Source: Congeria kusceri (Eukaryota; Mollusca; Bivalvia; Myida; Dreissenidae). From it: DNA of 64,000 nucleotides. Both the position numbers and the translations under genes were made by a program. The notes under the pieces are model-generated. The model did no database searches, had not been told where the DNA came from, and saw nothing but the letters and a program-made list of their open reading frames with translations. The stretch spans positions 75,421,078-75,485,077 of the forward strand of contig CM051029.1 in assembly GCA_027627225.1 (NCBI GenBank), in the 5' to 3' direction. Shown here one piece after another: positions 4,335 to 56,355 of the stretch (the first letter of the stretch is position 1; each line of letters begins with the position of its first letter).

Positions 4335-7300
4335 CTGAGTATGCGTGTCAAGTCGGCCATTGGGCCTGTGTGATCGACATAAGTTAAGAAGCCTGAGTGA
4401 TTGAGGTATGTTAAGAAGCCTGAGTGATTGAGGTATGTTAAGAAGTCTGAGTGATTGAGGTATGTTAAGAAGCCTGAGTGATTGAGGTATGTTAAGAAGC
4501 CTGTGTGATGGAGGTATGTTAAGAAGCCTGAAATACTGAGGTATATAAAGAAGCCTGCGTGAGTGAGGTATGTTAAGAAGCCTGAGTGATTGAGGAATGT
4601 TAAGAAGCCTGAGTGATTGAGGCATGTTAAGAAGCCTGAAAGACTGAGGTATATAAATAAGCCTGAGTGATTGAGGTATGTTAAGAAGCCTGAAAGACTG
4701 AGGTATATAAAGAAGCCTGAGTAATTGAGGTATAACAAGAAGCCTGAGTGATTGAGGTATGTTAAGAAGCCTGAGTGATTGAGGTATGTTAAGAAGCCTA
4801 AGTTGTTGAGGTATGTTAAGAAGCCTGAGTAATTGAGGTATGTTAAGAAGCCTGAGTTGTTGAGGTATGTTAAGAAGCCTGAGTGGTTGAGGTATGTTAA
4901 GAAGCCTGAGTTGTTGAGGTATGTTAAGAAGCCTGAGTGATTGAGGTATAAAAAGAAGCCTGCGTGATTGCGGTATAACAAGAAGCCTGAGTGATTGAGG
5001 TATAACAAGAAGCCTGTGTGATTGAGATATAACAAGAAGCCTGAGTGATTGAGGTATAACAAGAATCCTGAGTGATTGAGGTATAACAAGAAGCCTGTGT
5101 GATTGAGGTATAACAATCAGCCTAAGTGATTGAGGTATGTTAAGAAGCCTGAGTGATTGAGGTATAACAAGAAGCCTGAGTTGTTGTGGTATGTTAAGAA
5201 GCCTGAGTGATTGTGGTATGTTAAGAAGCCTGAGTGATTGAGGTATATAAAGAAGCCTGAGTGATTGAGGTATATAAAGAAGCCTGAGTGATTGAGGTAT
5301 ATAAATAAGCCTGAGTGATTGAGGTATATAAAGAAGCCTGAGTGATTGAGGTATGTTAAGAAGCCTGAGTGATTGAGGTATGTTAAGAAGCCTGAGTTGT
5401 TGAGGTATGTTAAGAAGCCTGAGTGATTGAGGTATATAAAGGAGCTTGAGTGATTGAGGTATATAAAGAAGCCTGAGTGATTGAGATATGTTAAGAAGCC
5501 TGAGTGATTGATGTATGTTAAGAAGCCTGAGTTGTTGAGGTGTGTTAAGACGCCTGAGTGATTGAGGTATGTTAAGAAGCCTGAGTGATTGAGGTATGTT
5601 AAGAAGCCTGAATGATTGAGGTATAACAAGAAGCCTGTGTTAGTGAGGTATGTTAAGAAGCCTGAGTGATTGAGGTATGTTAAGAAGCCTGTGTGATTGA
5701 GGCATATCAAGAAGCCTGAGTTATTGTAGTATGTTAAGAAGCATAAGTTATTAACGTATAACAAGAAGCCTGAGTGATTGAGGTATGTTAAGAAGCCTGA
5801 AAGACTGAGGTATATAAAGAAGCCTGAGTAATTGAGGTATAACAAGAAGCCTGAGTGATTGAGGTATGTTAAGAAGCCTGAGTTGTTGAGGTATGTTAAG
5901 AAGCCTGAGTGATTGAGGTATATAAAGGAGCTTGAGTGATTGAGGTATATAAAGAAGCCTGAGTGATTGAGATATGTTAAGAAGCCTGAGTGATTGATGT
6001 ATGTTAAGAAGCCTGAGTTGTTGAGGTGTGTTAAGACGCCTGAGTGATTGAGGTATGTTAAGAAGCCTGAGTGATTGAGGTATGTTAAGAAGCCTGAATG
6101 ATTGAGGTATAACAAGAAGCCTGTGTTAGTGAGGTATGTTAAGAAGCCTGAGTGATTGAGGTATGTTAAGAAGCCTGTGTGATTGAGGCATATCAAGAAG
6201 CCTGAGTTATTGTAGTATGTTAAGAAGCATAAGTTATTAACGTATAACAAGAAGCCTGAGTGATTGAGGTATGTTAAGAAGCCTGAAAGACTGAGGTATA
6301 TAAAGAAGCCTGAGTAATTGAGGTATAACAAGAAGCCTGAGTGATTGAGGTATGTTAAGAAGCCTGAGTTGTTGAGGTATGTTAAGAAGCCTGAGTGATT
6401 GAGGTATATAAAGGAGCTTGAGTGATTGAGGTATATAAAGAAGCCTGAGTGATTGAGATATGTTAAGAAGCCTGAGTGATTGATGTATGTTAAGAAGCCT
6501 GAGTTGTTGAGGTGTGTTAAGACGCCTGAGTGATTGAGGTATGTTAAGAAGCCTGAGTGATTGAGGTATGTTAAGAAGCCTGAATGATTGAGGTATGTTA
6601 AGAAGCCTGAATGATTGAGGTATAACAAGAAGCCTGTGTTAGTGAGGTATGTTAAGAAGCCTGAGTGATTGAGGTATGTTAAGAAGCCTGTGTGATTGAG
6701 GCATATCAAGAAGCCTGAGTTATTGTAGTATGTTAAGAAGCATAAGTTATTAACGTATAACAAGAAGCCTGAGTGATTGAGGTATGTTAAGAAGCCTGAA
6801 AGACTGAGGTATATAAAGAAGCCTGAGTAATTGAGGTATAACAAGAAGCCTGAGTGATTGAGGTATGTTAAGAAGCCTGAGTTGTTGAGGTATGTTAAGA
6901 AGCCTGAGTGATTGAGGTATATAAAGGAGCTTGAGTGATTGAGGTATATAAAGAAGCCTGAGTGATTGAGATATGTTAAGAAGCCTGAGTGATTGATGTA
7001 TGTTAAGAAGCCTGAGTTGTTGAGGTGTGTTAAGACGCCTGAGTGATTGAGGTATGTTAAGAAGCCTGAGTGATTGAGGTATGTTAAGAAGCCTGAATGA
7101 TTGAGGTATAACAAGAAGCCTGTGTTAGTGAGGTATGTTAAGAAGCCTGAGTGATTGAGGTATGTTAAGAAGCCTGTGTGATTGAGGCATATCAAGAAGC
7201 CTGAGTTATTGTAGTATGTTAAGAAGCATAAGTTATTAACGTATAACAAGAAGCCTGAGTGATTGAGGTATGTTAAGAAGCCTGAAAGACTGAGGTATAT

Positions 7301-10300
7301 AAAGAAGCCTGAGTAATTGAGGTATAACAAGAAGCCTGAGTGATTGAGGTATGTTAAGAAGCCTGAGTTGTTGAGGTATGTTAAGAAGCCTGAGTGATTG
7401 AGGTATATAAAGGAGCTTGAGTGATTGAGGTATATAAAGAAGCCTGAGTGATTGAGATATGTTAAGAAGCCTGAGTGATTGATGTATGTTAAGAAGCCTG
7501 AGTTGTTGAGGTGTGTTAAGACGCCTGAGTGATTGAGGTATGTTAAGAAGCCTGAGTGATTGAGGTATGTTAAGAAGCCTGAATGATTGAGGTATAACAA
7601 GAAGCCTGTGTTAGTGAGGTATGTTAAGAAGCCTGAGTGATTGAGGTATGTTAAGAAGCCTGTGTGATTGAGGCATATCAAGAAGCCTGAGTTATTGTAG
7701 TATGTTAAGAAGCATAAGTTATTAACGTATAACAAGAAGCCTGAGTGATTGAGGTATGTTAAGAAGCCTGAAAGACTGAGGTATATAAAGAAGCCTGAGT
7801 AATTGAGGTATAACAAGAAGCCTGAGTGATTGAGGTATGTTAAGAAGCCTGAGTTGTTGAGGTATGTTAAGAAGCCTGAGTGATTGAGGTATATAAAGGA
7901 GCTTGAGTGATTGAGGTATATAAAGAAGCCTGAGTGATTGAGATATGTTAAGAAGCCTGAGTGATTGATGTATGTTAAGAAGCCTGAGTTGTTGAGGTGT
8001 GTTAAGACGCCTGAGTGATTGAGGTATGTTAAGAAGCCTGAGTGATTGAGGTATGTTAAGAAGCCTGAATGATTGAGGTATAACAAGAAGCCTGTGTTAG
8101 TGAGGTATGTTAAGAAGCCTGAGTGATTGAGGTATGTTAAGAAGCCTGTGTGATTGAGGCATATCAAGAAGCCTGAGTTATTGTAGTATGTTAAGAAGCA
8201 TAAGTTATTAACGTATAACAAGAAGCCTGAGTGATTGAGGTATGTTAAGAAGCCTGAAAGACTGAGGTATATAAAGAAGCCTGAGTAATTGAGGTATAAC
8301 AAGAAGCCTGAGTGATTGAGGTATGTTAAGAAGCCTGAGTTGTTGAGGTATGTTAAGAAGCCTGAGTGATTGAGGTATATAAAGGAGCTTGAGTGATTGA
8401 GGTATATAAAGAAGCCTGAGTGATTGAGATATGTTAAGAAGCCTGAGTGATTGATGTATGTTAAGAAGCCTGAGTTGTTGAGGTGTGTTAAGACGCCTGA
8501 GTGATTGAGGTATGTTAAGAAGCCTGAGTGATTGAGGTATGTTAAGAAGCCTGAATGATTGAGGTATAACAAGAAGCCTGTGTTAGTGAGGTATGTTAAG
8601 AAGCCTGAGTGATTGAGGTATGTTAAGAAGCCTGTGTGATTGAGGCATATCAAGAAGCCTGAGTTATTGTAGTATGTTAAGAAGCATAAGTTATTAACGT
8701 ATAACAAGAAGCCTGAGTGATTGAGGTATGTTAAGAAGCCTGAAAGACTGAGGTATATAAAGAAGCCTGAGTAATTGAGGTATAACAAGAAGCCTGAGTG
8801 ATTGAGGTATGTTAAGAAGCCTGAGTTGTTGAGGTATGTTAAGAAGCCTGAGTGATTGAGGTATATAAAGGAGCTTGAGTGATTGAGGTATATAAAGAAG
8901 CCTGAGTGATTGAGATATGTTAAGAAGCCTGAGTGATTGATGTATGTTAAGAAGCCTGAGTTGTTGAGGTGTGTTAAGACGCCTGAGTGATTGAGGTATG
9001 TTAAGAAGCCTGAGTGATTGAGGTATGTTAAGAAGCCTGAATGATTGAGGTATAACAAGAAGCCTGTGTTAGTGAGGTATGTTAAGAAGCCTGAGTGATT
9101 GAGGTATGTTAAGAAGCCTGTGTGATTGAGGCATATCAAGAAGCCTGAGTTATTGTAGTATGTTAAGAAGCATAAGTTATTAACGTATAACAAGAAGCCT
9201 GAGTGATTGAGGTATGTTAAGAAGCCTGAAAGACTGAGGTATATAAAGAAGCCTGAGTAATTGAGGTATAACAAGAAGCCTGAGTGATTGAGGTATGTTA
9301 AGAAGCCTGAGTTGTTGAGGTATGTTAAGAAGCCTGAGTGATTGAGGTATATAAAGGAGCTTGAGTGATTGAGGTATATAAAGAAGCCTGAGTGATTGAG
9401 ATATGTTAAGAAGCCTGAGTGATTGATGTATGTTAAGAAGCCTGAGTTGTTGAGGTGTGTTAAGACGCCTGAGTGATTGAGGTATGTTAAGAAGCCTGAG
9501 TGATTGAGGTATGTTAAGAAGCCTGAATGATTGAGGTATAACAAGAAGCCTGTGTTAGTGAGGTATGTTAAGAAGCCTGAGTGATTGAGGTATGTTAAGA
9601 AGCCTGTGTGATTGAGGCATATCAAGAAACCTGAGTTATTGTAGTATGTTAAGAAGCATAAGTTATTAACGTATAACAAGAAGCCTGAGTGATTGAGGTA
9701 TGTTCAGAAGCCTGAGTGATTGAAGTATGTTAAGTAGCCTGAGTGACTGAGGTATACCTAGAAGCCTTTGTGATTGAGGTATATCAAGAAGCCTGAGTGA
9801 TTAAGGTAAATCAAGCAATCGGAGTGATTGAGGTATAACAATCAACCTGAGTGATTGAGGTATAACAATCAACCTGAGTGATTGAGGTATATCAAAGTAG
9901 CATGAGTGATTGAGGTATATCAAGAAGCCTCATTGATTTAGGTATATTAAGTAGCCTTAGTGATTGAGGAATATTTAGAAGCCTGTATGATTGAGATGCA
10001 TCAAGAATCCTGAGTGATTGAGGTATATCAAGAAACCTGAGTGATTGAGGTATGCCAAGAAACATTGTGATTGAAGTATATCAATTAGCCTGTGTGAATG
10101 AGGTATATAAATTAGCCTGTGTGATTGTAATATATCAATTAGCCTGTGTGTGTGAGGCATATCAAGACGCCTGTGTGATTGGGGTTTATCAAAAAGCCCG
10201 TGTAACTGAGGCCTATCAAATAGCCTGTGTGATTGAGGTACGTTAAGGAAGCCCGGTCGTTGCGGCATATCAAAAGTCTGTGTGGTTAAGGTATATCAAT

Positions 10301-10355
10301 AAGCCTGTGTGATTGGGGTATATAAACTAACCTGAGTGGTTGAGGTATATTAGGA
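4335..10355. repeat. 27-bp minisatellite, about 220 units over 6 kb
   Basis: The consensus plus-strand unit is GCCTGAGTGATTGAGGTATG followed by TTAAGAA, 27 bp in total. The flanks (4335-5360 and 9690-10355) are diverged and the centre is highly homogenised. On the minus strand the unit reads as nine residues of the type LTYLNHSGF. No stop occurs for 1,520 codons across 5117-9679, and a second minus frame is also partly open. All plus-strand frames contain TGA. The open frame follows from the unit length being a multiple of three with no stop in the unit. There is no evidence of splice sites, signal peptide or promoter, so I do not call a protein. Confidence 0.97.
5363..9682. repeat. Higher-order repeat: 486-bp (18 x 27 bp) blocks, 8 full copies
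   Basis: A rare variant unit beginning GCATAAGTTATTAACG marks each block. It falls at 5741, 6227, 6740, 7226, 7712, 8198, 8684, 9170 and 9656. Successive spacings are 486, 513 and then six times 486 bp, so one block gained a single 27-bp unit. Other marker units (AAGGAGCTTGAG, GTGTGTTAAGACGCC, GAAAGACTGAGG) recur in the same order in every block. A partial block of about 14 units lies to the left from about 5363. The blocks look almost identical base for base. One visible difference is AAGAAACC near 9625 in place of AAGAAGCC in the other copies. Confidence 0.95.
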
Positions 10356-12590: not shown

Positions 12591-12621
12591 TTAGAGTTCA
12601 TTCCAAACACCGGCCTGTATC

Positions 12622-12883
12622 ATGAGTGCATGGAATAATTTAACGTTGACGTCCGCGAACAATTCAGACGTGAACATTACTACCGGTGATTTGAACTGGG
12701 CCGTGCTACTACTGGGTGTCGTGGTAGTGTTCGGGATCACCGGGAATGTGATGGTCTGTATGGCCATATCGTTGGAGAAGCGTCTGCAGACGGTAACGAA
12801 CTATTTCCTGCTGTCTCTGGCCGTCACGGACCTGCTGGTGTGTCTCCTCGTCATGCCGCTCAGCATCCTCGACGAGTTCTTTG
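12622..12883 (+). CDS. Aminergic GPCR, serotonin 5-HT2-like, coding exon 1
   Basis: Encodes residues 1-87 plus the first base of codon 88 of a 503-residue receptor. The start ATG opens a short extracellular N-terminus with Asn-X-Ser/Thr sites near residues 6, 13 and 18. TM1 (about 26-50) carries the GN motif at 41-42, and TM2 (about 60-82) carries the conserved Asp70. The stretch NWAVLL, SLEKRLQ, TNYFLLSLA, LVMPLSIL matches my memory of 5-HT2 receptors far better than dopamine D2 receptors. The exon ends TTCTTTG at a GTAAGA donor, phase 1. The other exon is 24941-26190. A plasma-membrane monoamine receptor is expected; coupling to Gq is family knowledge, not shown here. No other candidate coding exon lies close upstream. 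Confidence 0.9.
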
Positions 12884-13099
12884 GTAAGACAAACACATCT
12901 ACATTTTTATACATAGTTGCCCGTAAATGACGGGATTCGCTTTCGTGTTTTATGTGCATGCCGGCAGATTGTTGTGTATAGTTTAAACCGGTGTGTGATA
13001 TGTAAAAATATACAATTAGGTGTGAGTATTTAATACCGCCACTTGATTGTGTGTTGTTGAAACATCAGTAAAATACACCCATCGCAATCATTTAGACAG

Positions 13100-24021: not shown

Positions 24022-24512
24022 ACAGTACGGTGGTACAGAGGTGACATGCACTACTCTTTTTTTATATCTCGTCCCCACGAGATATTAACTCGAGGGAACG
24101 AGATACGAACTCGTGGGAACGAGATGCTAACTCATGGGAACGAAATAACTAAGTCGAGGGAACGACATACTATTTCGTGGGAACGAGATACTAACTCCAG
24201 CGAACGACTTAGTACCATCTAATGGTCGTTTTTGTCGGCAATGGTTATTATTGTTATTATAAAATCATATATACGGAAACATTTAACTGGTTCTCTAACA
24301 CGTGTGAACAAAATACTAACTGAGTAACTCGCTCCCTCGACTTAGTATCTCGTTCCCTTGACATAGTATCTCGTTCCCACGAGTTAGTATCTCGTTCCCA
24401 CGAGTTTGTATCTCGTTCCCACGAGTTTGTATCTCGTTCCCACGAGTTATGATATCATTGGAACGAGATACAAAAGAGTAATGCATGTCCCCTCTGCGCC
24501 ACCGTATTATAG
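24022..24512. mobile_element. Foldback element with arms made of opposing 21-bp repeats
   Basis: The outer ends TACGGTGGTACAGAGGTGAC (24025) and GTCCCCTCTGCGCCACCGTA (24488-24507) form terminal inverted repeats. Next to the left end are about six 21-bp units of the CTCGTGGGAACGAGATACTAA type. Next to the right end are about seven units in the opposite orientation (TTAGTATCTCGTTCCCACGAG). Each unit also holds its own small palindrome (CTCGTGGGAACGAG). About 90 bp of unrelated sequence lies between the arms. The plan, inverted tandem arrays as arms, is that of Drosophila FB elements. Confidence 0.88.
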
Positions 24513-24817: not shown

Positions 24818-24940
24818 GCAAGTTAATATCTTATTGGTTTAGAAGGGGCTAGCTTCGCTGCGCTCGCTCCGCTCCTTTCTTAACCAATAATATTTTACTG
24901 AATATGTTTTAACTATTACATATGACATTGTGTTTTGCAG

Positions 24941-26190
24941 GTTACTGGAGGTTCACTGCGGTAATGTGTAACATCTTCGTCACTACTGACGTCATGATGT
25001 GTACGTCATCAATCCTCCACCTGTGCGGCATCTCCGTCCAGCGATACCTCGCCATCCAGTTCCCGCTGCGGTCCAGAAATAAATCAAAGTCCATCGTTTT
25101 CGCGAAAATAGGTGGCATCTGGCTGTTGTCCATCTTAATATCGAGCCCCGTCACGGTGCTGGGAGCGCTTGACAAGTCCAATATATTGAACGAGCATCAC
25201 TGCACTCTCAAACATAATGGCTTCATCATTTACGGATCGATCCTGGCGTTCTTTATCCCACTTGTTATAATGATCATCACGTATTCCCTGACTGTGCGTC
25301 TTCTATACAAACAGTCCAAACGGTGCGATCACAGCAGAGGCGCGGACTCCAATGGAGGAGCGCCCATTCTCCGCCGCTGTAGGACGAGTTCAGTGCGGCG
25401 AAACGGGCTTCCCAGATCACGAGATGATCACAGTGCAGATCAGTACGAACTTATCGAACGAGAAAAACTGAATAATAATTCGAATATCGAGCATGGGTAC
25501 ACTCGGGTTCCGAGTATACTTTCCCACTCAGTGTCGTGTGAGACGATCTCTAACGGCGGGGGCGGCGAGCACAGTACGTATGCACGAAACAACGTCAAGG
25601 GACACAACTCGTTTTTTCTGGCTGTGCCGCGGGGATTCGGCATAGAATCGTCGCTGGAGTCTATAAGCGGAAGTGATCTCTCAGACGACGATGATCACAA
25701 ATCACGGCGGGGATCATTCAGAATGGATGGGGATAGTGCAAGAAGACATTCGTTTAGAGATATCATCAACAAACAATTCCTTATAAAGGCCTCCAGCATT
25801 CTGAACCTAGCCCGTGACCGCCACAAGGACCGGACCACGGTGAGGACGGAACAGAAGGCCACCAAGGTGCTCGGACTCGTTTTCGCGCTCTTCCTGCTCT
25901 GCTGGCTGCCATTCTTCGTCGTCAACGTGATTCCCGCCATGTGTGAGCGCTGCTACGTCCACGAGACGCTCGTGTCCACGTGCGCATGGCTGGGCTGGGC
26001 TAGCTCCACCATCAACCCCATCATCTACACCATGTTTAACAAAACATTCAAGAGGTGCTTCGCTAAGTTTTTGACTTGTGACTATGGGCGCAGAGACCGA
26101 CCCGTGCTATGGACCCCCAGCGTCAGCCGCAAGCTGAACATTTCCGTGCGGGAAGTATCCAGCGACAGGGAGGTGTGGTCGGACCGCTGA
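24941..26190 (+). CDS. Aminergic GPCR, serotonin 5-HT2-like, coding exon 2
   Basis: The acceptor TGTTTTGCAG joins in phase to exon 1 and completes Gly88, giving 503 residues in total. TM3 has Cys97 for the ECL2 disulphide and amine-binding Asp104. At its inner end QRY (121-123) replaces the usual DRY. Trp148 lies in TM4 and Cys175 in ECL2. TM5 reads YGSILAFFIP, with Gly186, Ser187 and Ala190 at the catechol-serine positions. This is the 5-HT2 pattern (GSxxAFFIP) rather than the dopamine pattern SSxxS. The third loop is long (about 210-395), rich in Ser, Asp and Arg. TM6 has CWLPFFVVN and TM7 has WLGWASSTINPIIY (NPxxY at 446-450). FNKTFKRCF and Cys467 follow as helix 8 and a possible palmitoylation site. 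Dopamine receptor-like is the main alternative. Confidence 0.93.
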
Positions 26191-26221: not shown

Positions 26222-26743
26222 TATGGCGTACCCTTTGGGTCAAAAGTACATATATGCACGGCAGCTAAATATAGATGTAACTGTTGTTATATAATTGTAA
26301 CCGCAGTTACATATACAGATATAACTGCAGTAACAATTTATACCTAAAGTAAAACAAATATGACAGTTGTCATAAAATTATAGCTGCAGTTACACTTTTT
26401 TCTGATTCATTTATTTATCAAATATGTATCTTTAAATTGTTTTTATAATTAAAAAAAAATCTTATTTAAATAAATAAAGGCAATTTTGACAAAAAGGCAT
26501 TCTATAAGACGTGCTTTCATTCGCCAAACAGACTTGGGGCTGGAGTTTAGCATTTGGTCAGAAAAATGTAACCGCGGTTATAATTTTATGACGATTGCCA
26601 TATTTTATTACTGTTGGTATAAATTATTACTGCAATTTGTAAATGTAACTGCCGTTACAAATGTATAACTGCAGTCTTAAAATTGTAACTTCTATATTAG
26701 CTGCCGTGCATATATGTACTTTTGACCCAAATGGTACGCCATA
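26222..26743. mobile_element. Foldback element (522 bp) in the GPCR 3' region
   Basis: The left end TATGGCGTACCCTTTGGGTC continues AAAAGTACATATATGCACGG. The right end mirrors it exactly in order (CCGTGCATATATGTACTTTT, then GACCCAAATGGTACGCCATA). Both arms then carry repeated GTAACTGCAGTTA-type motifs in alternating orientation. The terminal inverted repeats are about 60 bp and nearly identical. A second copy, split by another element, is at 34935-37454. AATAAA at about 26474 could supply the receptor's polyadenylation signal. Confidence 0.88.
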
Positions 26744-27120
26744 CTATCATGCATGTACATAGTGGTGTTATGGAACGGAACACAAACACAGATACACTAA
26801 CTGATCTTCATTATCTTAATGAACTTTCGATTTAATTAAGATGTATGTCTAAATCTTTACTAATTAAATTGCAATTACAATTCTTATTACAATATATTTG
26901 ATATTTACACTACATTCTAAAAGTTGTTTATATTTTGGAAGGAATCACTGTATTAAATACTTAATTTAAATATTACTTTAAAACTGATGTGATTTCTGTG
27001 TACGTGTATAAAGCAAACTTTACTTTTGATGATCCGAAATCAAATAGGTATGCTATTAACAATATGTATTTGCAACACATTTGCAATGTATTTATTTAAC
27101 AACCCGGGTCCAATCGGCTA
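26744..27120. other. AT-rich spacer
   Basis: No feature is recognised. Confidence 0.5.
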
Positions 27121-27445
27121 ATGATAATTCTAACATGATAATCGCTAATTTTCTATTGACAAAGAACAAACTTATCGTTGTTAATCTACCCAATAAACAA
27201 TGCCAAAAGAAGTCCCGAGTCTGAGCGGAGTGAAGTAAAAAGTAGTTCAAATGACAATTGCAAAAATACATGTCAAATCATGTTAGAATCGAAATAATTT
27301 TCGCAGTATTGTTGTTTATCGGCCAATAAAAAACTCTTTGTCTTTCTGATGCGAGGCTATTAAACAACCCTTGTGGTTTAATTTCTACGCATCAGAACTC
27401 CAAATCGTTGTTTTTTGGCTGATAAACAACGAGGAATCAAAAATG
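27121..27445. mobile_element. Foldback family copy with a central long hairpin
   Basis: 27121-27300 matches, in reverse complement, the flank of the copies at 34348 and 45203 (TCTAACATGATAATCGCTAA; GTCCCGAGTCTGAGCGGAG). 27310-27440 is the hairpin: GTTGTTTATCGGCCAATAA on the left, then CTGATGCGAGGCTATTAAAC. The return arm reads TACGCATCAGAACTCCAAAT and GGCTGATAAACAACG. No coding capacity. Confidence 0.8.
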
Positions 27446-27684
27446 ATTTCTTAAATAGTATGAAACACATGCACTGTTATCTTAATGTAGTAGATACTCC
27501 AATAATAAATCCAAATAATACAACCGGGTTATGACTTTGGCACGGGGGACGTTTGGAAGTGGTCCAGTTCAACCGTGACTCATCAGCATGTCGTATAAGT
27601 GCCATCCTAGATATCCGCTCACGATCGAATATCCGAGAGTTTGCATGACGACATATGTAAAAGAGCGTACATTCAGAATAAAAT
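27446..27684. other. Spacer
   Basis: Nothing is recognised. Confidence 0.5.
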
Positions 27685-31575: not shown

Positions 31576-32041
31576 CTTAAAGGGACTTGTTCACAGATTT
31601 TCGTATTTTTGAAAAATGTCATTAAATGAATTTACTTACAAAACTGTCATATCTGGAATAGTTTTAAATAATTATGATAACAAGGAAAAAGATATATAAA
31701 AAAAATTTGCCTGCCCTGGGGTTCGAACCCGGGACCCCTAGAAGCAAAAGCTAACGCGCTACCACTACACCACGCAGGCTTATGAATTTGGATGGCAGTT
31801 TAAACGCTATGTCGGTAATACACGTTTTTGCTAAATTATCTATGAAAAGCGTTACAAACGCTTTATTATTTTTCCAATTTCGATTGATGATTATAAATAA
31901 ACGAACATATCTTTTTAACATTTTTCTTAGTCAGGAGTGTTATTTTGCTTGTGTGAATATAATGCATACATTCTTTTTTGAATCTATGACAATTTTTTTG
32001 AAAATTGTCATTTTGCCAAACTGTGAACAAGTCCCTTTAAG
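31576..32041. mobile_element. Inverted-repeat element carrying a tRNA-like gene
   Basis: The ends CTTAAAGGGACTTGTTCACA and TGTGAACAAGTCCCTTTAAG form a perfect 20-bp inverted pair with weaker extension (GAAAAATGTCAT / ATGACAATTTT). Internal sequence read from the right end (AGCAAAATAACACT, GCGTTTGTAACGC) matches the left arm of the 3.6 kb foldback element at 52748-56355 in the same order. Both are therefore one family. A tRNA-like sequence points outward about 130 bp from the left end. A third, tRNA-less relative is at 44669-45070. Confidence 0.87.
31709..31779 (-). tRNA. tRNA-like gene inside the inverted-repeat element
   Basis: The minus strand begins GCCTGCGTGGTGTAGTGGTA, with an A box, and has a B box (GGTTCGAACCC) in a T arm. 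It ends AGGGCAGGC, which pairs with GCCTGC in the acceptor stem (one mismatch at position 7). The anticodon arm (TTAGCTTTTGCTTCTAG) pairs poorly. A Lys-like TTT reading is possible but not secure. It may be a working RNA polymerase III promoter without being a functional tRNA. Confidence 0.55.
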
Positions 32042-33905: not shown

Positions 33906-34347
33906 TCCGGGTTTGCAAAACGGAAGAAATTGAAAAGAAAATACATGTACATAAACATTGAAATCTTCATCAGTATTTACACAACTATTTTAAAACCAGA
34001 GACTTCGAAATTTACTCATACAACTGACATTTACCGGCAAAAAGTACAAGGTTATAAATAATCAATATCATACCAATTACCATGCACAAGGTATGAACAT
34101 AAACATCCAAACGTTCAGTTCACAGTGTATGAACATAAACATCCAAACGTTCAGTTCACAGTGATACCCGATATTGTAACGGTTTGTTTACAAGAGCTTC
34201 GATAACGTATCACGGATAAAATGAACACCTTCATGTGAGTCTGACACCGAGTGGCCGGAGGTGTGTGTGTTTGTGGGGGGGGGGGGGGGGGAGAGCTAGT
34301 ATTCAGTACGAGATATTTTGGTTCATTACTAAAGAAATAATTTTCCA
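33906..34347. other. Spacer with a 36-bp direct duplication and a G run
   Basis: GTATGAACATAAACATCCAA continuing to CAGTTCACAGT occurs twice in tandem at 34091-34163. A run of about 17 G lies at 34275-34291. No exon is recognised. Confidence 0.7.
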
Positions 34348-34672
34348 TTTATCGTTGTTTATCGGTCAATAATTAACGATTTGGAGTTCTGATGCGTAGG
34401 AATTAAACCACGTTAGCCCGAGTTGTTTAATAGCCACGCATCAGAACGACAAAGAGTTGTTTATTGGCCGATAAACAACGATAATGCAAACATTATTTAG
34501 ATTCTAACATGATTTGACATAAATTTGTGCAATTGTAATTGCAACACTTCTTTTTTCTATGCTCCACTCGGAAGCGGGACTTCCTTTTGCGTTGTTTATG
34601 GGAAGTTAAACAACAATAATTTTGTTATTTGTCTATATAAAAATTGGCGAGTATCCTGTTAAAATATAATAT
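34348..34672. mobile_element. Foldback family copy with a central long hairpin
   Basis: 34348-34482 is the hairpin: TATCGTTGTTTATCGGTCAA, then TGGAGTTCTGATGCGTAGG. The return arm reads CCACGCATCAGAACGACAAA and GGCCGATAAACAACGATAA. It is followed by the family flank (GATTCTAACATGATTTGACA; GCGAGTATCCTGTTA near 34650), shared with 45203-45494 and, inverted, with 27121-27445. Confidence 0.85.
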
Positions 34673-34934: not shown

Positions 34935-37454
34935 TATGGCGTACCTTGTGGGTCAAAAGTACATATACGCCTGCAAGATAAATATGGATGTAACGGTTGT
35001 TATACAATTGTAACCGCAGTTACAATTTGATGACTCCAGTTAGACATTTGCAACAGCATTTACATTTACAAATATGACAATCGTTATAAAATTATAAACG
35101 CGGTAACATTTTTCTGATCAAATGCTTAATTTAAGGTAGTACAACTGTAATCATTTCCCGCGTTTTTTCCAAGATCGGCCGATATCGGTGACTGTCGGAA
35201 AGTTTCGTTACCCAGTTCGTAATATGCCCGTTTGGTTCCGATTCCTATCGAACACATAATATTTTTAATATAAGTACATTCTTTTATATAATCACATTAT
35301 TTTATACATGTTAGTATCATATATATACTTCTGACGAAATGCAAATAGATAAATATTTTGACATAATGAAATTTTGATTGAAATTGAAGCCGAAAGTCAC
35401 ATATTTTTCGTGGTATAAACAAAAACAACTGTCCAACGAAAATTATAAATACGAGCACAAAGGGAAGAAAATCGGAGCCATATACATAACCGTCACCAGA
35501 TCGTACATAATTATGATGAACCAGCTTGAATCCTGATAATAAGGAGATGAAACACATGTAAGTAAAACAAGAAAGTGAAAGAATTGTATTTTTATTCAGA
35601 AATTTCTGAATATATTGATATTTGTCTATAAAATCAGAACGAAATTCATTAGAGGATAATGTGATGCTTTTCATTTCAATGCTTGAACTACGAAATTGTA
35701 TTGCTTAAATGTTCAATTAATATAATTAGTATAAGTAATAGTATTTGCATGTATTTGTGTTTGTCCATATACATGTAAGTAAATGAACATACAAGTCATG
35801 ATTACACGTATGATGCGTCAGTCCCTTAGTTTTGAAGCCTCAAGACACTTTAATAGTTGAGTACTTATACTTAATATGTGTGCCATTTTGCTTATGAATG
35901 TGTGCACCAGTGTTTTTTCATGATCAGCATACTAATAAGGATCCGTTCAGTAATTACAGTTTTGACATTAATTTTACCTTACACTAAAAAGTATGGCTTA
36001 CTAGGTTGGGTTGCACATATACTGGAAAGTTTTGTAAGTATATTGTTAAATATGTAGTGGAAAACAATCAGTTATTGGATTGTTTTAAAATATGTTTTGC
36101 AGCTGAAGGAAGAGAATTGCCACAAATCACTCGGAATGCTTCCCTGGGGGTCAAAACTGGTGCTCAACACAGTACACATGTTTTTTTTCTAACTGTGCCA
36201 GTTGGTGAAGATGCAGCCTAAATTACCAGCATATACAGCCTCAATTACCAGCATAAACATTGTTGACATGAAGATGATTTGAAACGAAGATAGTAAATAA
36301 GACACTTATTGTTGATGTACGGTGTATTGTCCCAGAGCTGAAAACGTTGCAGGGTGTGGGTGTGGATGGCATTTTGTGTACCTCTAGGGAACTGAATTTT
36401 GAAAAAAAAAGTTTGTTTAACTGAAACAATAACTTTTAATTATTTATATATTTAGTTTAACTGGTATAAATGGTGTATTAAACTTAAAATGCATAATTTA
36501 TGTCACAATTTATAATTATTGTTGTGGAATCGCCAAAATATAGCTGTCTATTTTTTAAAGAGTATGATAGTTTTTCTTCACTTTTTCAAAAAGTACAAAG
36601 TAAATGTGTTTCTAACTTTTTATTTTAGTCAAATATATGTCATAAATGAAAAATTAATAAAAAGATTTAAGTGAAAAAACATACCAGTCCAGGAAAACCT
36701 AAATCTGTACGACAACATATTATTTTATCTGTTCTGTCAGCTTCAAGTTTATGCTGAGCTTCCATAGAAAATTGATAAATATCAATACTTTTATCTTCTT
36801 TAACGCCTTATGATGCCTTATTTTATAATCTTCAATCATTACTTGTATAAAAGACACCAACATTTTGGATATATTTGCAACTATAATGGAGCTATGATTT
36901 TTTTCCATCCATAGGGTAAATGAATTTTGATGGAAAAATGGAAAAAGGGGTTGTCCTGAACATTTTCCAAAAAAATAATTTGGGGGCATGGAAAGCCACC
37001 CTCAAAATTTGTAATAAGATCAGTGACGTAATACAGATAATGGAAATACTATTTAAAATTAGGTTCGGAATATTGCCCATTACAGTTGTATTACCTTAAG
37101 CTCTTAATCTGTTTGGCAAATTAAAGCACGTCTTATATAATGCCTTTCTTGTCAAAATTGGTTTTATTTATTTGAAAGTGAATTTTTAAATTATAAAAAC
37201 AATTTAAACTACATATTTTATAAATAAACTAATCAGTCAAATATGTAACTGCAGTTATAATTTTATTTCAGCTATCATATTATTTTACTTTCGGTATAAA
37301 TTGTAACTGCAGTTATATCTGTAAATGTACATGCTGTTACAAATGTATGACTGCAGTAATAAATTTGTAACTGCGGTAACAATTTTATAACAACAGTTAC
37401 ATCTATATTTAGCCACTGTGCATATATGTACTTAGACCTAAATGGTTCACCATA
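34935..37454. mobile_element. Foldback element split by a nested TTAA-flanked element
   Basis: The outer ends TATGGCGTACC (34935) and GGTTCACCATA (37454) and their arms match the 522-bp element at 26222-26743, in the opposite orientation. The left fragment is 34935-35134 and the right fragment 37096-37454. The homology stops at the same internal point on both sides, where a 1.96 kb element is inserted. Removing that element and one TTAA restores a sequence of the same length as the intact relative. Confidence 0.85.
35131..37099. mobile_element. TTAA-flanked nested element (1.96 kb), no transposase
   Basis: TTAA at 35131-35134 and again at 37096-37099 bounds inverted ends GGTAGTACAACTGTAAT and ATTACAGTTGTATTACC (17 bp, one mismatch). 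TTAA target duplication is typical of piggyBac-type transposons. The ends here start with GG, so family assignment is open. The interior is AT-rich. A 125-codon hydrophobic minus frame (35297-35674) and a 71-codon plus frame (36006-36221) show no transposase motif. It is presumably non-autonomous. Confidence 0.82.
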
Positions 37455-44668: not shown

Positions 44669-44913
44669 CTTAAAGGGACTTGTGCACAGATTTTTGTATT
44701 TTTCAACATATGCCATATAAATTTCTAAACATGAAAAACTACAGCATCAAAGCTACAAAAGAACCTCTGGTATTATAACAGGAACAGCATCAAACAAGAA
44801 ACAAAATGTGCCACCATCGATACGACGTCCTGATCGAAAGTATGACACGCAGGCCACCAACTTTATGCAAGTGGTTCACGTGTTTGCAGCAATTGCAATG
44901 ATAACAACAGAAG

Positions 44914-44961
<48 letters not shown>

Positions 44962-45070
44962 CAGTAGTACTATGTTGCCCCTTTATTTTCAATTTTATTT
45001 CATTTTAAAAATCTGTGAAAATAATTTTGGAAATTGTCAATTAGTCAATCTGTGAACAGGTACCTTTAAT
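44669..45070. mobile_element. Inverted-repeat element of the CTTAAAGGGAC family, without tRNA
   Basis: CTTAAAGGGACTTGTGCACAG at the left and CTGTGAACAGGTACCTTTAA at the right are the family ends. They continue inward to AAATTGTCAATTAGTCAATC as in the 52748 and 31576 elements. The centre contains a (TA)n-(TG)n microsatellite (44919-44960). No tRNA-like B box is seen. Confidence 0.75.
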
Positions 45071-45202
45071 TCAAGTTCCAATGAGTAAGTTGTAGTCAAC
45101 ATAAACAGACACCACATGTAGATGATTTAAAACAACTTTTTGAACGCTGCTTGATCCACATTGCACCGTATTAGTTAAGAAATATTATTTGTTTTCGATT
45201 TG

Positions 45203-45494
45203 TCGTAATTTATCGGCCAATAAACAACGATTTGGAGTTATGATGCAAAGGAATTAAACCACGAGGGCGATTAACAGCCACGCATCAGAACGATCAACAA
45301 CGATAACTCAAAAATTATTTTGATTCTAACATGATATTTTTGCAATTATAATGAAAACTACATTTTACTATGCTCTGCTCAGAATCGGGACTACATTTTG
45401 CGTTGTTTATTGTGTACTGTAGTTTAACAATGATAATTTTGTTCTTTGTCTATAGAAAAATTAGCGAGTATCATGTTAGAATAATCAATAAAGT
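45203..45494. mobile_element. Foldback family copy with a central hairpin
   Basis: The left arm is TCGTAATTTATCGGCCAATA, AACGATTTGGAGTTATGATG. The return arm is shortened (CCACGCATCAGAACGATCAA, CAACGATAA). The flank TGATTCTAACATGATATTTT and the right edge AGCGAGTATCATGTTAGAA match the copy at 34348-34672. Confidence 0.82.
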
Positions 45495-52747: not shown

Positions 52748-53027
52748 CTTAAAGGGACCTGTTGTCAGATTGAAGAATTGACAATTTTTCAACTTTCTGT
52801 CTCCGATTAAAAGAACAGTGTATACAAGATAGCAAAATAACACTACGGACCTAGAAAGATACTGTAAAAACCGTTTCGTTCATAAGTTATCATCAGTTGA
52901 AATTGATAAAATTATAAAGCGTTTGTAACGCTAAACTATGGAACGACTAGACTGTCTTATGTTGATTGTTGACATGCTGGATGGTTCATTTAAATGATGA
53001 TTGATTTTATTATAACAGATATGAGGT

Positions 53028-54035
53028 TATCGTGGTATGCTGTGTGTTTATGATAGTATGCTGTGTGTTTATGATAGTATGCTGTGTGTTTATGATAGTA
53101 TGCTGTGTGTCAATGATGGTATGCTGTGTGTTTATAATGGTATCCTGTGTGTTTCAGATGGTATGTTGTGTGGTTATAATGATATGCTGTGTCTTTATGA
53201 TGGTATGCTCGAGGTTATCATGGTATGCTGTGTGTTTATGACGGTATGATGTGTGTTTATGATGGTATGTTGTGGGTTTATGATGGTATGCTGTGTGGTT
53301 ATCATGGTATTCTGAGTGTTCATAACGGTATGTTGTGTGTTTATGATGGTATGCTGTGCGTTTATGATGGTATGCTGTGTGTTGATGATGGTATGCTGAG
53401 TGCTTATAATGGTATGCTGTGTGTTTATGATGGTAAGCTGCGTGTTTATACTGGTATGCTGTGTGTCTATGATGGTCTGTTGTGTGTTTATAATGGTATG
53501 TTGTGTGTTGATGATGGTATGCTACGTGTTTATAATGGTATACTGTGTGTTTATGATGGTATGCTGTGTGTTTATAATGGTATGTTGTGTGTTTATAATG
53601 GTACGTTGTGTGTTGATGATGGTATGCTACGTGTTTATAATGGTGTGCTGTGTGTTTATGATGGTATGCTGTGTGTTTATGATGGTAAGCTGCGTGTTTA
53701 TACTGGTATGCTGTGTGTTTATGATGGTCTGTTGTGTGTTTATAATGTTATGTTGTGTGTTGATGATGGTATGCTACGTGTTTATAATGGTATAGTGTGT
53801 TTATGATGGTATGCTGTGTGTTTATAATGGTATGTTGTGTGTTTATAATGGTATGTTGTGTGTTGATGATGGTATGCTGTGTGTTTATGATGATATGCTG
53901 TGTGTTTATGATGGTATGCTGTGTGTTTATGATGGTATGCTGTGTGTATATGAAGGTATGCTGTGTGTATATGAAGGTATGCTGTGTGTTTATGAAGGTA
54001 TGCTGTGCGGTTATCACGGTATGCTGTTCTTTTCA
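53028..54035. repeat. Left-arm 21-bp array of the foldback element, about 48 units
   Basis: Units read TATGCTGTGTGTTTATGATGG, with TATAATGG and TGATGATGG variants. A block with CTACGTGTTTATAATGG and AAGCTGCGTGTTTATACTGG recurs near 53420, 53520 and 53690, showing duplicated multi-unit segments. Stop-free frames (MLCVYDG repeats) are spurious. Confidence 0.95.
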
Positions 54036-54604
54036 CTCGATATCATTTTATTTGATATTATTTTCATTCGGAGCACTAGTTCTTTGACGTTGTCGCTTGA
54101 TAAATGTCACATGAATGGTGTGTAATCCGTATGACATCACTGTTTAATTGTGATGTATGATATTTTCACCCAGGCTTTATTTCTGTCCAGCCTAGCAAAA
54201 TAGCTCAATGTAAACTTGATCTGTTGTTGTATGGCTTATCGGCTAAGGTCGGACTACTTAGGTGTAGCGAGCAATTGGCTGTTAAACAAAATCAAAGCAG
54301 GGGGAGAATTAAAGATAATTAGGGAATGTGTGACACCAGGAATTTGCTAGAAAATTGTTAGTTTAGAAGAGAGCAACCACAATAAGATCATGGGAGTAGA
54401 GAAGTTGAAAAGCGCACTCCTTGCAATTGGGCATATTGCTTTATTGGATCTATTCCTTAATGAACGTATTGACCAGGGTTCGACCTTAACGCGTGTCCGT
54501 CGGTTCGTGACCTGTGACTTTTCGCTCGGACCGGTTGTCTTTGAAGGACAAACCCTGATCCAACATCAGATTTTTATAATAGCACAGCATATGATGTAAA
54601 CCAA
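54036..54604. other. Spacer between foldback arms
   Basis: Non-repetitive sequence of about 570 bp. A 69-codon plus frame (54390-54599) has no domain. I see no transposase fragment. Confidence 0.55.
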
Positions 54605-55945
54605 CATCACATCATGATAACCACACAGCATAACACTTTAACCACACAACAAACCATTATAACCACACATCATACCACAAAAACCTCATATAATATCGTT
54701 ATAACAACACAACGTACTATCATAAACACACAGCATACCATCCTAAACACACAGCATACCATGATAACCGCACAACATACCATTATTACAACACATCATA
54801 CTATCATAAACGCACAGCATACTATCATAAACAAACAACATACTATCATAAACACAACATACTATCATAAACACACAACATACTATCATAAACACAACAT
54901 ACTATCATAAACACACAACATACTATCATAAACACACAACATACTATCATAAACACACAGCATACTATCATAAACACACAGCATACGATCATAAACACAC
55001 AGCATACCATGATAATCTCACAGCATACCATCATAACAACTCAGCATACCATCATAAGCACACACCATAACATCAGAAACGCACAGCATACCATCATAAA
55101 CACACAGCATACCATTAGAACCACACAGCATACCATTATAAACACACAGCATACCATCATAAACACACAGCATACCATCATAAACACACAGCATACCATC
55201 ATAAACACACAGCATACCATCATAAACACACAGCATACCATTAGAACCACACAGCATACCATCATAAACACACAGCATACTATCATAAACACACAGCATA
55301 CCATCATAAGCACACAGCATACTATGATAGCCACACAGCATACCATCATAAACACACAGCATACCATTAGAACCACACAGCATACCATCATAAACACACA
55401 GCATACCATCATAACCACACAGCATACTATCATAAACACACAGCATACTATCATAAACACACAGCATACTATCATAACCACACAGCATACCATAATAAAC
55501 ATACAACATACCATTCTAACCACACAGCATACTATCATAACCACACAGGATACCATCATAACCACACATGATACCATCATAAACACACAGCATACCATCA
55601 TAAACACACAGCATACCATCATAAACACACAGCATACCATAATAAACATACAACATACCATTCTAACCACACAGCATACTATCATAACCACACAGGATAC
55701 CATCATAACCACACATCATACCATCATAAACACACAGCATACCATCATAAACACACAGCATACCATCATAAACACACAGCATACCATCATAAACACACAG
55801 CATACCATTATAACCACACATCATACTATCATGACCACACAGGATACCATTATAAACACACAGCATTCCATTATAACCACACAGCATACAGTCGTAAACA
55901 CACAGCATACTATCATAAACACACAGCATACCATGAAAACCTCAT
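54605..55945. repeat. Right-arm 21-bp array of the foldback element, about 62 units
   Basis: Units read CCATCATAAACACACAGCATA, the reverse complement of the left array. Variants include CTATCATAAAC and CCATTAGAACC. A segment with AATAAACATACAACATACCA, TTCTAACCACACAGC and ACACAGGATACC occurs twice (near 55493 and 55630), so the array also has internal block duplication. Frames of 163-316 codons are spurious. Confidence 0.95.
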
Positions 55946-56143
55946 ATCATAGTATATAATCCATCATCATTTCAATGAACCATCCAGCATGTCAATAGTC
56001 AACATCAGACGGTCTAGGCGTTCCATACTAAACGATGGAATAATTTGGAGTGTTTCTGTTGTTTTCGTTGAAATTGTTGACAACGCGTGGAACACTTACA
56101 GAAAGTACATAAAGTAAATAATGCAGGATTCTAGTCAGAAGTC

Positions 56144-56213
56144 AGAATAGCCGAGTGGATAAGGCAATGGCTTTTCAATCTGGTGGTCCAGGGGTTCAAA
56201 CCCCAGTAGGATA
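56144..56213 (+). tRNA. tRNA-like sequence in the right arm of the foldback element
   Basis: An A box (TAGCCGAGTGG) fits the eukaryotic consensus and a B box (GGTTCAAACCC) is near consensus, at normal spacing. The region GGCTTTTCAATCTGGTGGTC to TTCAAACCCCAG resembles the matching part of the tRNA-like sequence at 31709-31779. The acceptor ends do not pair, so it is not a working tRNA. It points outward about 140 bp from the element end, as in the 31576 element. Confidence 0.55.
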
Positions 56214-56355
56214 ATTGTTCTTTTCTTTTTTTTAATAAATACTTGTCTTGTTACTCTACTTAAGCTTTTTAGTTCAGATGCTTAAATCTCTCAAGGTGAG
56301 ACATTTAATGGCATACTTACAAAAATGCGAAAATCTGTTAATCAAGTCCCTTTAA

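Follow-up and report, generated by a model that had tools for sequence, protein, structure and literature searches.

The question raised by this locus is how a mobile element with two long, opposed minisatellite arms can arise. A window of 64,000 nucleotides from the bivalve Congeria kusceri (GCA_027627225.1, contig CM051029.1, positions 75,421,078 to 75,485,077) has been analysed, in which the original prediction had placed a 3.6-kb foldback element at 52748-56355. Further copies were searched for in the window's own genome (G000, 1.549 Gb). The results make it highly probable that the window copy is a non-autonomous, internally deleted derivative of a DNA transposon of ~20 kb, probably of the IS3EU/GingerRoot superfamily, and that its arms were inherited from this parent.

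Self-comparison of the window revealed arms that pair head to head, 52937-54027 with 56027-54936, with 934 of 1094 columns identical (85.4%) and a longest perfect run of 40 bp. Inverted homology begins exactly at 52937 and 56027; further outward, only a short terminal repeat of a miniature inverted-repeat transposable element (MITE) is inverted at the far ends, and the outer ~185 bp and ~320 bp of 52748-56355 are otherwise not inverted copies of one another. The predicted foldback with opposed minisatellite arms is therefore real, and its extent is 52937-56027 (3,091 bp) rather than 52748-56355. It has TATGG..CCATA termini, an exact 6-bp CTAAAC (6/6) on both sides, and the plan of a foldback-type element, with 1.09-kb arms, internal 21-bp arrays and a centre of ~0.6 kb. 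Of the 280-bp left block that had been described as matching unique sequence, the inner ~95 bp belong to the foldback and the remainder to the host MITE.

According to Tandem Repeats Finder (TRF), the left array contains 47.5 copies of the 21-bp unit (53033-54027) and the right array 62.9 copies in reverse complement (54617-55933), a row with a 63-bp period extending the latter to 54610-55941. The description of the arrays as exact reverse complements holds for the consensus unit and not for the arrays as a whole. The window arms were 86.3% alike over 1 kb, and their terminal blocks 90% with gaps left out or 85% by blastn. The block duplications that had been proposed for each arm were found in the left one above the shuffled level (12-unit period, 12 shared variants against a shuffled maximum of 10); in the right one (7-unit period) the 11 shared variants only equalled the shuffled maximum, yet identity reached 99% over 105 bp at a spacing of 147 bp. 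An origin of the 21-bp unit by copying of the terminal block was rejected, with alignment scores no better than those of shuffles (p 0.15-0.90). The array reading frame used as protein query gave 5,676 candidates, none at E <= 1e-5, exact-pattern scans of viral contigs and genome contigs gave 0 matches, and the open reading frames (ORFs) of the window centre and of 34935-37454 had no Pfam match above the cut-off.

The sequence surrounding the foldback is an older, TTAA-flanked MITE of ~510 bp, which is the source of the CTTAAAGGGAC ends. The outer ends TTAAAGGGAC / GTCCCTTTAA, which had been assigned to the foldback, are present and recurrent, and they belong to this host: an exact second occurrence lies at 31577/32031, and a third, at 44670/45060, has a single mismatch in one of its two ends. 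The bare 10-mer of these ends is at chance level (7 matches with <=1 mismatch against 3.55 expected, 8 of 100 shuffles reaching 7), and the relatedness of the occupied copy (E1) to the two others in the window (E2, 31577-32040; E3, 44670-45069) rests on the alignment of neighbouring sequence and not on this count. E1 aligns through its left flank (52748-52932) with the left half of E2, and through its right flank with the right half of both E2 and E3; the inner inverted blocks of the foldback match neither E2 nor E3. When the flanks of E1 were joined with a single CTAAAC, they aligned across the junction with E2 (score 70, maximum 46 in 500 shuffles). A genome search with 52748-53030 gave 2,851 first-look candidates, of which 40 were scored, and the joined flanks aligned end to end, at 79-84%, with all seven other MITE copies fetched. 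The insertion site is single and unoccupied in each of these seven, as CTAAAC in six and TTAAAC in one; three of them (L002, L003, L008) have common flanks, so about five are independent. The exact 6-bp duplication and the single sites in the other MITE copies thus demonstrate a nested insertion with a 6-bp target-site duplication, the foldback lying inside an unrelated, older MITE.

The ends of the host MITE are TTAA-AGGGAC..GTCCCT-TTAA in E1 and E2, with one terminal mismatch in E3; seven genome copies start with TTAAAGGGAC, and the right ends vary in some. With its TTAA flanks and 5'-RR termini, the MITE appears to fit Kolobok. TTAA flanks and 5'-RR..YY-3' termini are common to this superfamily in the accessible part of PMC9587614, which also reports it from molluscs; unlike Kolobok as presented there, the host MITE is short and contains a tRNA-like stretch in its right half. 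The link of the foldback to tRNA-bearing short elements that had been noted does exist, and it is accidental, as the tRNA-bearing MITE is merely the insertion site. The tRNA-like stretch scored as tRNA-Gln in E2 (34.4 bits) and only 18.6 bits in E1, and no tRNA was found by ARAGORN in the MITE copies L001-L008; therefore this part decays or differs among copies. A literature search on TTAAAGGGAC, or on MITE, tRNA gene and TTAA in molluscs, gave nothing relevant by title.

A search with the terminal block (52937-53032) gave 108 candidates, 40 of them scored, and 41 match rows at 92-94% apart from the block itself. Instead of occurring only at this locus, the foldback ends recur genome-wide on elements of ~20 kb, many of the rows being plus/minus pairs at about this distance. 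The paired copies end in TATGG..CCATA and measure 19.8-28.3 kb, and seven of the eight full-size pairs checked outside contig C459 have exact 6-bp duplications (CAATCT in C191, TATATT in C174, GGAACG in C12, AATGTA in C9, GTTTTC in C5, and CAAATC and AGTGTC in two C2 pairs). The 21-bp array was present in all 30 ends fetched out of the 41 rows, the window's own included, and started 76-83 bp inside the terminus. Seven same-side ends are identical over ~1.59 kb, and no similarity was found among their outer flanks, which points to very recent transposition of the large family. A separate subfamily of large copies with perfect arms was ruled out, as the ends concerned all come from the same side of the element. 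The copy C174:129910-158231 has 28.3 kb instead of ~20 kb with its TATATT duplication intact, and probably carries a further insertion inside. At C459:3096-3283 two terminal blocks of the large family lie end to end, 2 bp apart.

The centre of the window copy is composed of two distant parts of the large element. Blocks 54020-54119 and 54180-54473 correspond at 91-94% to sequence lying immediately inward of one end in the large copies, and 54470-54524 corresponds at 91-93% to sequence ~3.2 kb inside the other end, a distance calculated from the coordinates of the fetched stretches. When the genome was searched with 54380-54530, which spans the junction, 40 of 412 candidates were scored and 41 rows obtained: 11 loci, including the window, cross the junction, 29 rows end there or no more than 2 bases away, and the last one is a further, partial match within the C13 copy. 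Among the 11, the short copy C1:23998271-24003888 (5,618 bp) has the same deletion junction as the window and arrays of ~41 and ~143 units, and that at C7:41901153 (~3.9 kb) has arrays of ~25 and ~78 units; in those on C13 and at C5:41155977 one end only was found in the fetched stretches. The short form thus makes up a family whose arms, in the copies read, differ strongly in length. An assembly join at the foldback is unlikely because of the exact target duplication and the 10 further loci with an identical internal junction.

Several observations weigh against descent from the large family by deletion. One of the eight full-size pairs (C7:39089597) has flanks without match (CCATAA/AAATAT), and neither of the two apparent pairs in C459 has matching flanks, both joining same-side ends; two loci on C459 have 1.5 kb of outer flank in common at 100%, an inverted duplication within the contig. 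The duplication of the C1 short copy is imperfect (CAATAC/AAATAC, 5/6), the C7 short copy is without a clear one (at best 4/6 with an alternative left end), and positions 54525-54609 of the window centre were assigned to neither part of the large element.

The following course of events is proposed. Each end of the parent element consists of a ~90-bp terminal block followed by the 21-bp minisatellite pointing inward, and the inverted-repeat plan would have been inherited from the parent, because the large copies already carry the arms. The main deletion may have been produced by microhomology-mediated repair at the 4-bp overlap. The integrase of the large relatives, supplied in trans, could have inserted the short copy into the pre-existing MITE with a stagger of 6 bp, and afterwards the arrays would have lengthened and shortened separately in each arm via slippage or unequal exchange. 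The coordinates of the features are listed below.

Features of the foldback, its host MITE and other elements with the same type of termini in the window
Feature	Position	Strand	Evidence
Second, unrelated foldback, TACGG..CCGTA, flanks TTACAG/TTATAG, opposed 21-bp arrays	24026..24506		Terminal-rule scan and genome search
Short palindromic element, TATGG..CCATA, flanks ATATCA/CTATCA	26222..26743		Terminal-rule scan
Relative of 26222-26743, exact CAAAAC flanks, TTAA-flanked element 35135-37095 nested inside	34935..37454		Relaxed scan
Host MITE left half, TTAA 52749-52752, terminal repeat AGGGACCTG..., includes first CTAAAC	52749..52936	+	Matches E2, E3 and 7 genome copies
Target-site duplication CTAAAC, left copy	52931..52936	+	Exact 6/6; single in 6/7 unoccupied copies, TTAAAC in L005
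Foldback left terminal block (TATGGAACG...)	52937..53032	+	41 genome match rows at 92-100%, itself included; inverted copy 55935-56027
Left arm, 21-bp minisatellite, ~47 units	53033..54027	+	TRF; array inside the ends of all 30 fetched terminal inverted repeat loci, window included
Centre, first part: just inside array at one end of ~20-kb element; start of sub-threshold SAM-like exon	54028..54473	+	91-94% to L028, L034, L019, L025, L038, L017
Main deletion junction, 4-bp overlap	54470..54473		Bases included in both flanking matches; 11 genome loci cross
Centre, second part: ~3.2 kb inside other (transposase) end of ~20-kb element	54474..54524	+	92.7% to L046, 90.9% to L045
Right arm, 21-bp minisatellite in reverse complement, ~63 units	54610..55934	-	TRF, unit decomposition
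Foldback right terminal block (...CGTTCCATA)	55935..56027	-	Inverted copy of 52937-53032; block also in genome family
Target-site duplication CTAAAC, right copy	56028..56033	+	Exact 6/6
Host MITE right half ending GTCCCT-TTAA, tRNA-like stretch 56141-56213	56034..56355	+	tRNA model 18.6 bits, under 29-bit cut-off

The coding content of the large copies was analysed in eight pieces of 4.0-4.5 kb from six copies, which were read unassembled and cover most of the interior by offset arithmetic; in the six pieces compared, overlaps were mostly 95-99% identical, with two stretches near 89-90%. In a six-frame Pfam search, two copies gave an integrase core (PF24764, E 1.8e-66 and 1.7e-66), with PF00665 remaining under its cut-off, and two large copies gave a HECT-domain exon that passes the curated threshold (PF00632, E ~1e-7). 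Matches to glutaredoxin and to a SAM-like exon (E 0.031) were sub-threshold, and two of the eight pieces had no Pfam match. The integrase core sits on an ORF of 303 codons, the longest in the five pieces with ORFs listed. As reading frames are short, the genes of the large copies would be split by introns, and the N-terminus of the integrase protein probably lies in another exon. Residues of the core identified by eye are D (HIDTN), D (RIDMGMEN) and E (RIERLW), with 32 residues between the last two. The ORF has 1,839 homologues at E <= 1e-3; the 120 listed include proteins of Mytilus, Mercenaria, Ruditapes, Dreissena polymorpha and Hydractinia, one of them named transposase InsO family protein, presumably an IS3-type name, and several carry N-terminal PF13384, PF13936 or PF02796, which we take to be helix-turn-helix domains. 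In IS3EU/GingerRoot the transposase is of an IS3/IS481-like DDE lineage and has no HHCC zinc domain upstream of the core; the few N-terminal Pfam domains seen among the 120 listed homologues are other ones.

In the accessible parts of PMC10045372 and PMC12730594, IS3EU elements are described with TA..TA termini and usually 6-bp duplications, those of rust fungi having TAYGG..CCRTA termini and 6-bp duplications. The termini of the window copy and of the paired copies and the duplications found in this mussel agree with that description, as does an integrase-type transposase; fungal members also carry passenger genes (a TET/JBP gene and an alpha-kinase). The size of ~20 kb, the minisatellite arms, the HECT exon and the foldback derivative distinguish the mussel family, neither tandem-repeat arms nor foldback forms being described in those parts. 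Judged from the features in common, the superfamily is probably IS3EU/GingerRoot. On the other side, this name is drawn from the termini, the length of the duplication and an integrase of a suitable general type, and the Pfam label reads only 'Integrase core domain'. Another or unnamed integrase-like (rva_4) lineage with an equal duplication length is nevertheless a rather improbable source: TAYGG..CCRTA with 6 bp is exactly the published rule in rust fungi, TA..TA with usually 6 bp is published for IS3EU generally, and both the InsO-named homologue and the N-terminal domains of several of the 120 also argue against it.

The common unit of the two arms had been attributed to sequence exchange between them, which could operate through hairpin-mediated conversion. 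In favor of exchange, the consensus unit is identical in both window arms, 23 single-base variants (34 in the left arm, 37 in the right) are common to both, and the terminal 93 bp are 100% identical between both ends in four of four full-size copies. Against it stand the arms of four large copies compared at both ends (C191, C12, C9 and C5; C174 left out for gaps): same-side arms of different copies are 96.1% identical on average (n=12, 91.5-99.2), and left and right arms of one copy only 92.6% (n=4, 92.3-92.9), the same mean as for opposite-side arms of different copies (n=12, 90.8-94.0). In C174 the two arms are 85.1% alike, with many gaps. Set in register, the window arms are 85.9% alike, which does not stand out from the mean over lags of 84.1% (sd 1.6), and they have no variant block in common above chance. 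The unit types group by arm (permutation p 0.0005): of 64 distinct types (32 and 35 per arm), only 3 occur in both. The window left arm is slightly nearer to its own side of the large copies (89.3% vs 88.2%), and the right arm shows no such preference (89.9% vs 90.3% to the other side); the window copy on its own therefore gives no sign of descent by side. On balance, the large-copy arms seem to follow their own side and array exchange, an unlikely explanation, is unsupported, the window copy alone being undecisive; the identical terminal blocks would still allow for selection or conversion acting on the extreme ends.

Polintons are elements of 15-25 kb with 6-bp duplications, a rve-type integrase and genes for DNA polymerase and capsid, and they usually begin with AG. 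It is very unlikely that the large relatives are virus-like elements of this Polinton/Maverick type, and the foldback a derivative of one: their size, the 6-bp duplications and the integrase core would suit it, but no DNA polymerase, capsid, packaging ATPase or protease was found at E <= 0.1 in the six-frame search of the eight pieces from six copies (small interior gaps unread), which gave only HECT, the integrase core and the sub-threshold glutaredoxin, no listed ORF exceeds 303 codons, and TA..TA termini fit IS3EU. A single 3.6-kb foldback family with CTTAAAGGGAC ends, whose internally deleted members would be the tRNA-bearing short elements, can practically be dismissed in spite of the recurrence of the outer ends on short elements and of TTAA flanks that would suit a transposon, as the inverted homology stops at 52937/56027, the inner ends are also found elsewhere in the genome with different flanking sequence, and the single CTAAAC/TTAAAC in seven of seven short copies (about five independent) would require identical precise deletions each time.

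The Drosophila FB elements, to which the original prediction had likened the plan, are non-autonomous foldbacks with long inverted repeats made partly of tandem repeats and with variable arm length. The same features are found in Tetris and in Galileo, as far as the accessible text of PMC4079207 (which cites the latter) describes them; the duplications of Tetris are 8-10 bp long, and that text places it in Mutator, the superfamily to which most foldbacks are attributed there, with exceptions. By comparison, the mussel foldback has a 6-bp duplication instead of 8-10 bp, an integrase-type transposase in its family and a full-size parent with arms in the genome; it belongs to a superfamily other than Mutator, with its parent present. 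Tandem repeats tied to IS3EU in a bivalve are also found in oyster, where the satellites CgiSat35 and CgiSat47 are annotated DNA/IS3EU in the part of PMC8268682 available; their units are longer (690 and 129 bp), and foldback structures or inverted arms are not described in that part. The bivalve Helentron/HINE elements pearl and CvA are likewise mobile with tandem-repeat cores, but those described in the available part of PMC11136912 are of Helitron/Helentron type with subterminal inverted repeats and a central array, without opposed arms or 6-bp duplication. No publication linking IS3EU with foldback elements was found in the partly accessible literature; in the one paper that names both, IS3EU is confined to a table of satellites and foldback to the title of a cited work.

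Other elements of the window follow the same terminal rule. A scan for TAYGG..CCRTA elements whose terminal 25 bp are alike and whose flanks agree in 5 or more of 6 bases, a rule set after the sites had been noticed, gave three window sites (24026-24506, 26222-26743 and 52937-56027) against 0.005 expected from 200 random sequences, and no site with duplications of 3-5 or 7-9 bp. A relaxed scan (0.24 expected) added 34935-37454; this was ruled out as a large parent copy, being a short relative of 26222-26743. The nesting is reversed there, with a TTAA-flanked element of 1,961 bp with a ~17-bp inverted repeat inside a MITE with a 6-bp duplication. A search with the 24026 family gave 552 candidates, 40 scored, and 40 match rows; its own 21-bp array (60-204 bp of array) was present in 20 of 20 fetched loci, the window's included, and in the C15 pair (11.5 kb), the only one checked, the CTTTAC duplication is exact. 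Relatedness between the 21-bp units of the two families was ruled out (p 0.67-0.98). Ends of the 24026 type also form same-strand series with a period of ~6.3 kb at C4:87201534-87220616 and C366:4474-23540.

Every fetched end of both families contains an array, which starts at a nearly constant distance from the terminus (76-83 bp in the large family, 38-42 bp in the 24026 family), and the array units resemble the terminal blocks in neither. The length of 21 bp corresponds to two helical turns. One tentative possibility, which we regard as less probable than not, is that the arrays have a function in the transposon end instead of being passive satellites: they could form a repeated protein-binding platform, used by the transposase or by a partner of it, that two or more families of this superfamily would have acquired separately in one genome, foldbacks then arising by deletion of the centre.

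Among the other repeats of the window, three related ones lie at 27119-27457, 34327-34665 and 45181-45490, one with a palindrome at 34335-34498, and a 6-kb array with a 27-bp unit and a 486-bp higher-order period extends over 4364-10352. This array and many further minisatellites surround serotonin/dopamine-type receptor exons (12595-12930, by eye, and 24913-26190); a receptor exon is 85% identical to a D. polymorpha protein, which fits a species near Dreissena.

Parent and derivative occur together in one genome, with arms already in the full-size copies and one deletion junction common to the derivatives, and therefore the order of events, arms first and deletion later, is directly readable. 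If the arrays were indeed binding platforms, foldbacks could arise from any superfamily needing such platforms at its ends, simply through deletion of the centre. The signs of recent activity make this transposon system experimentally testable, and the family illustrates one route by which hairpin-like foldback elements arise.

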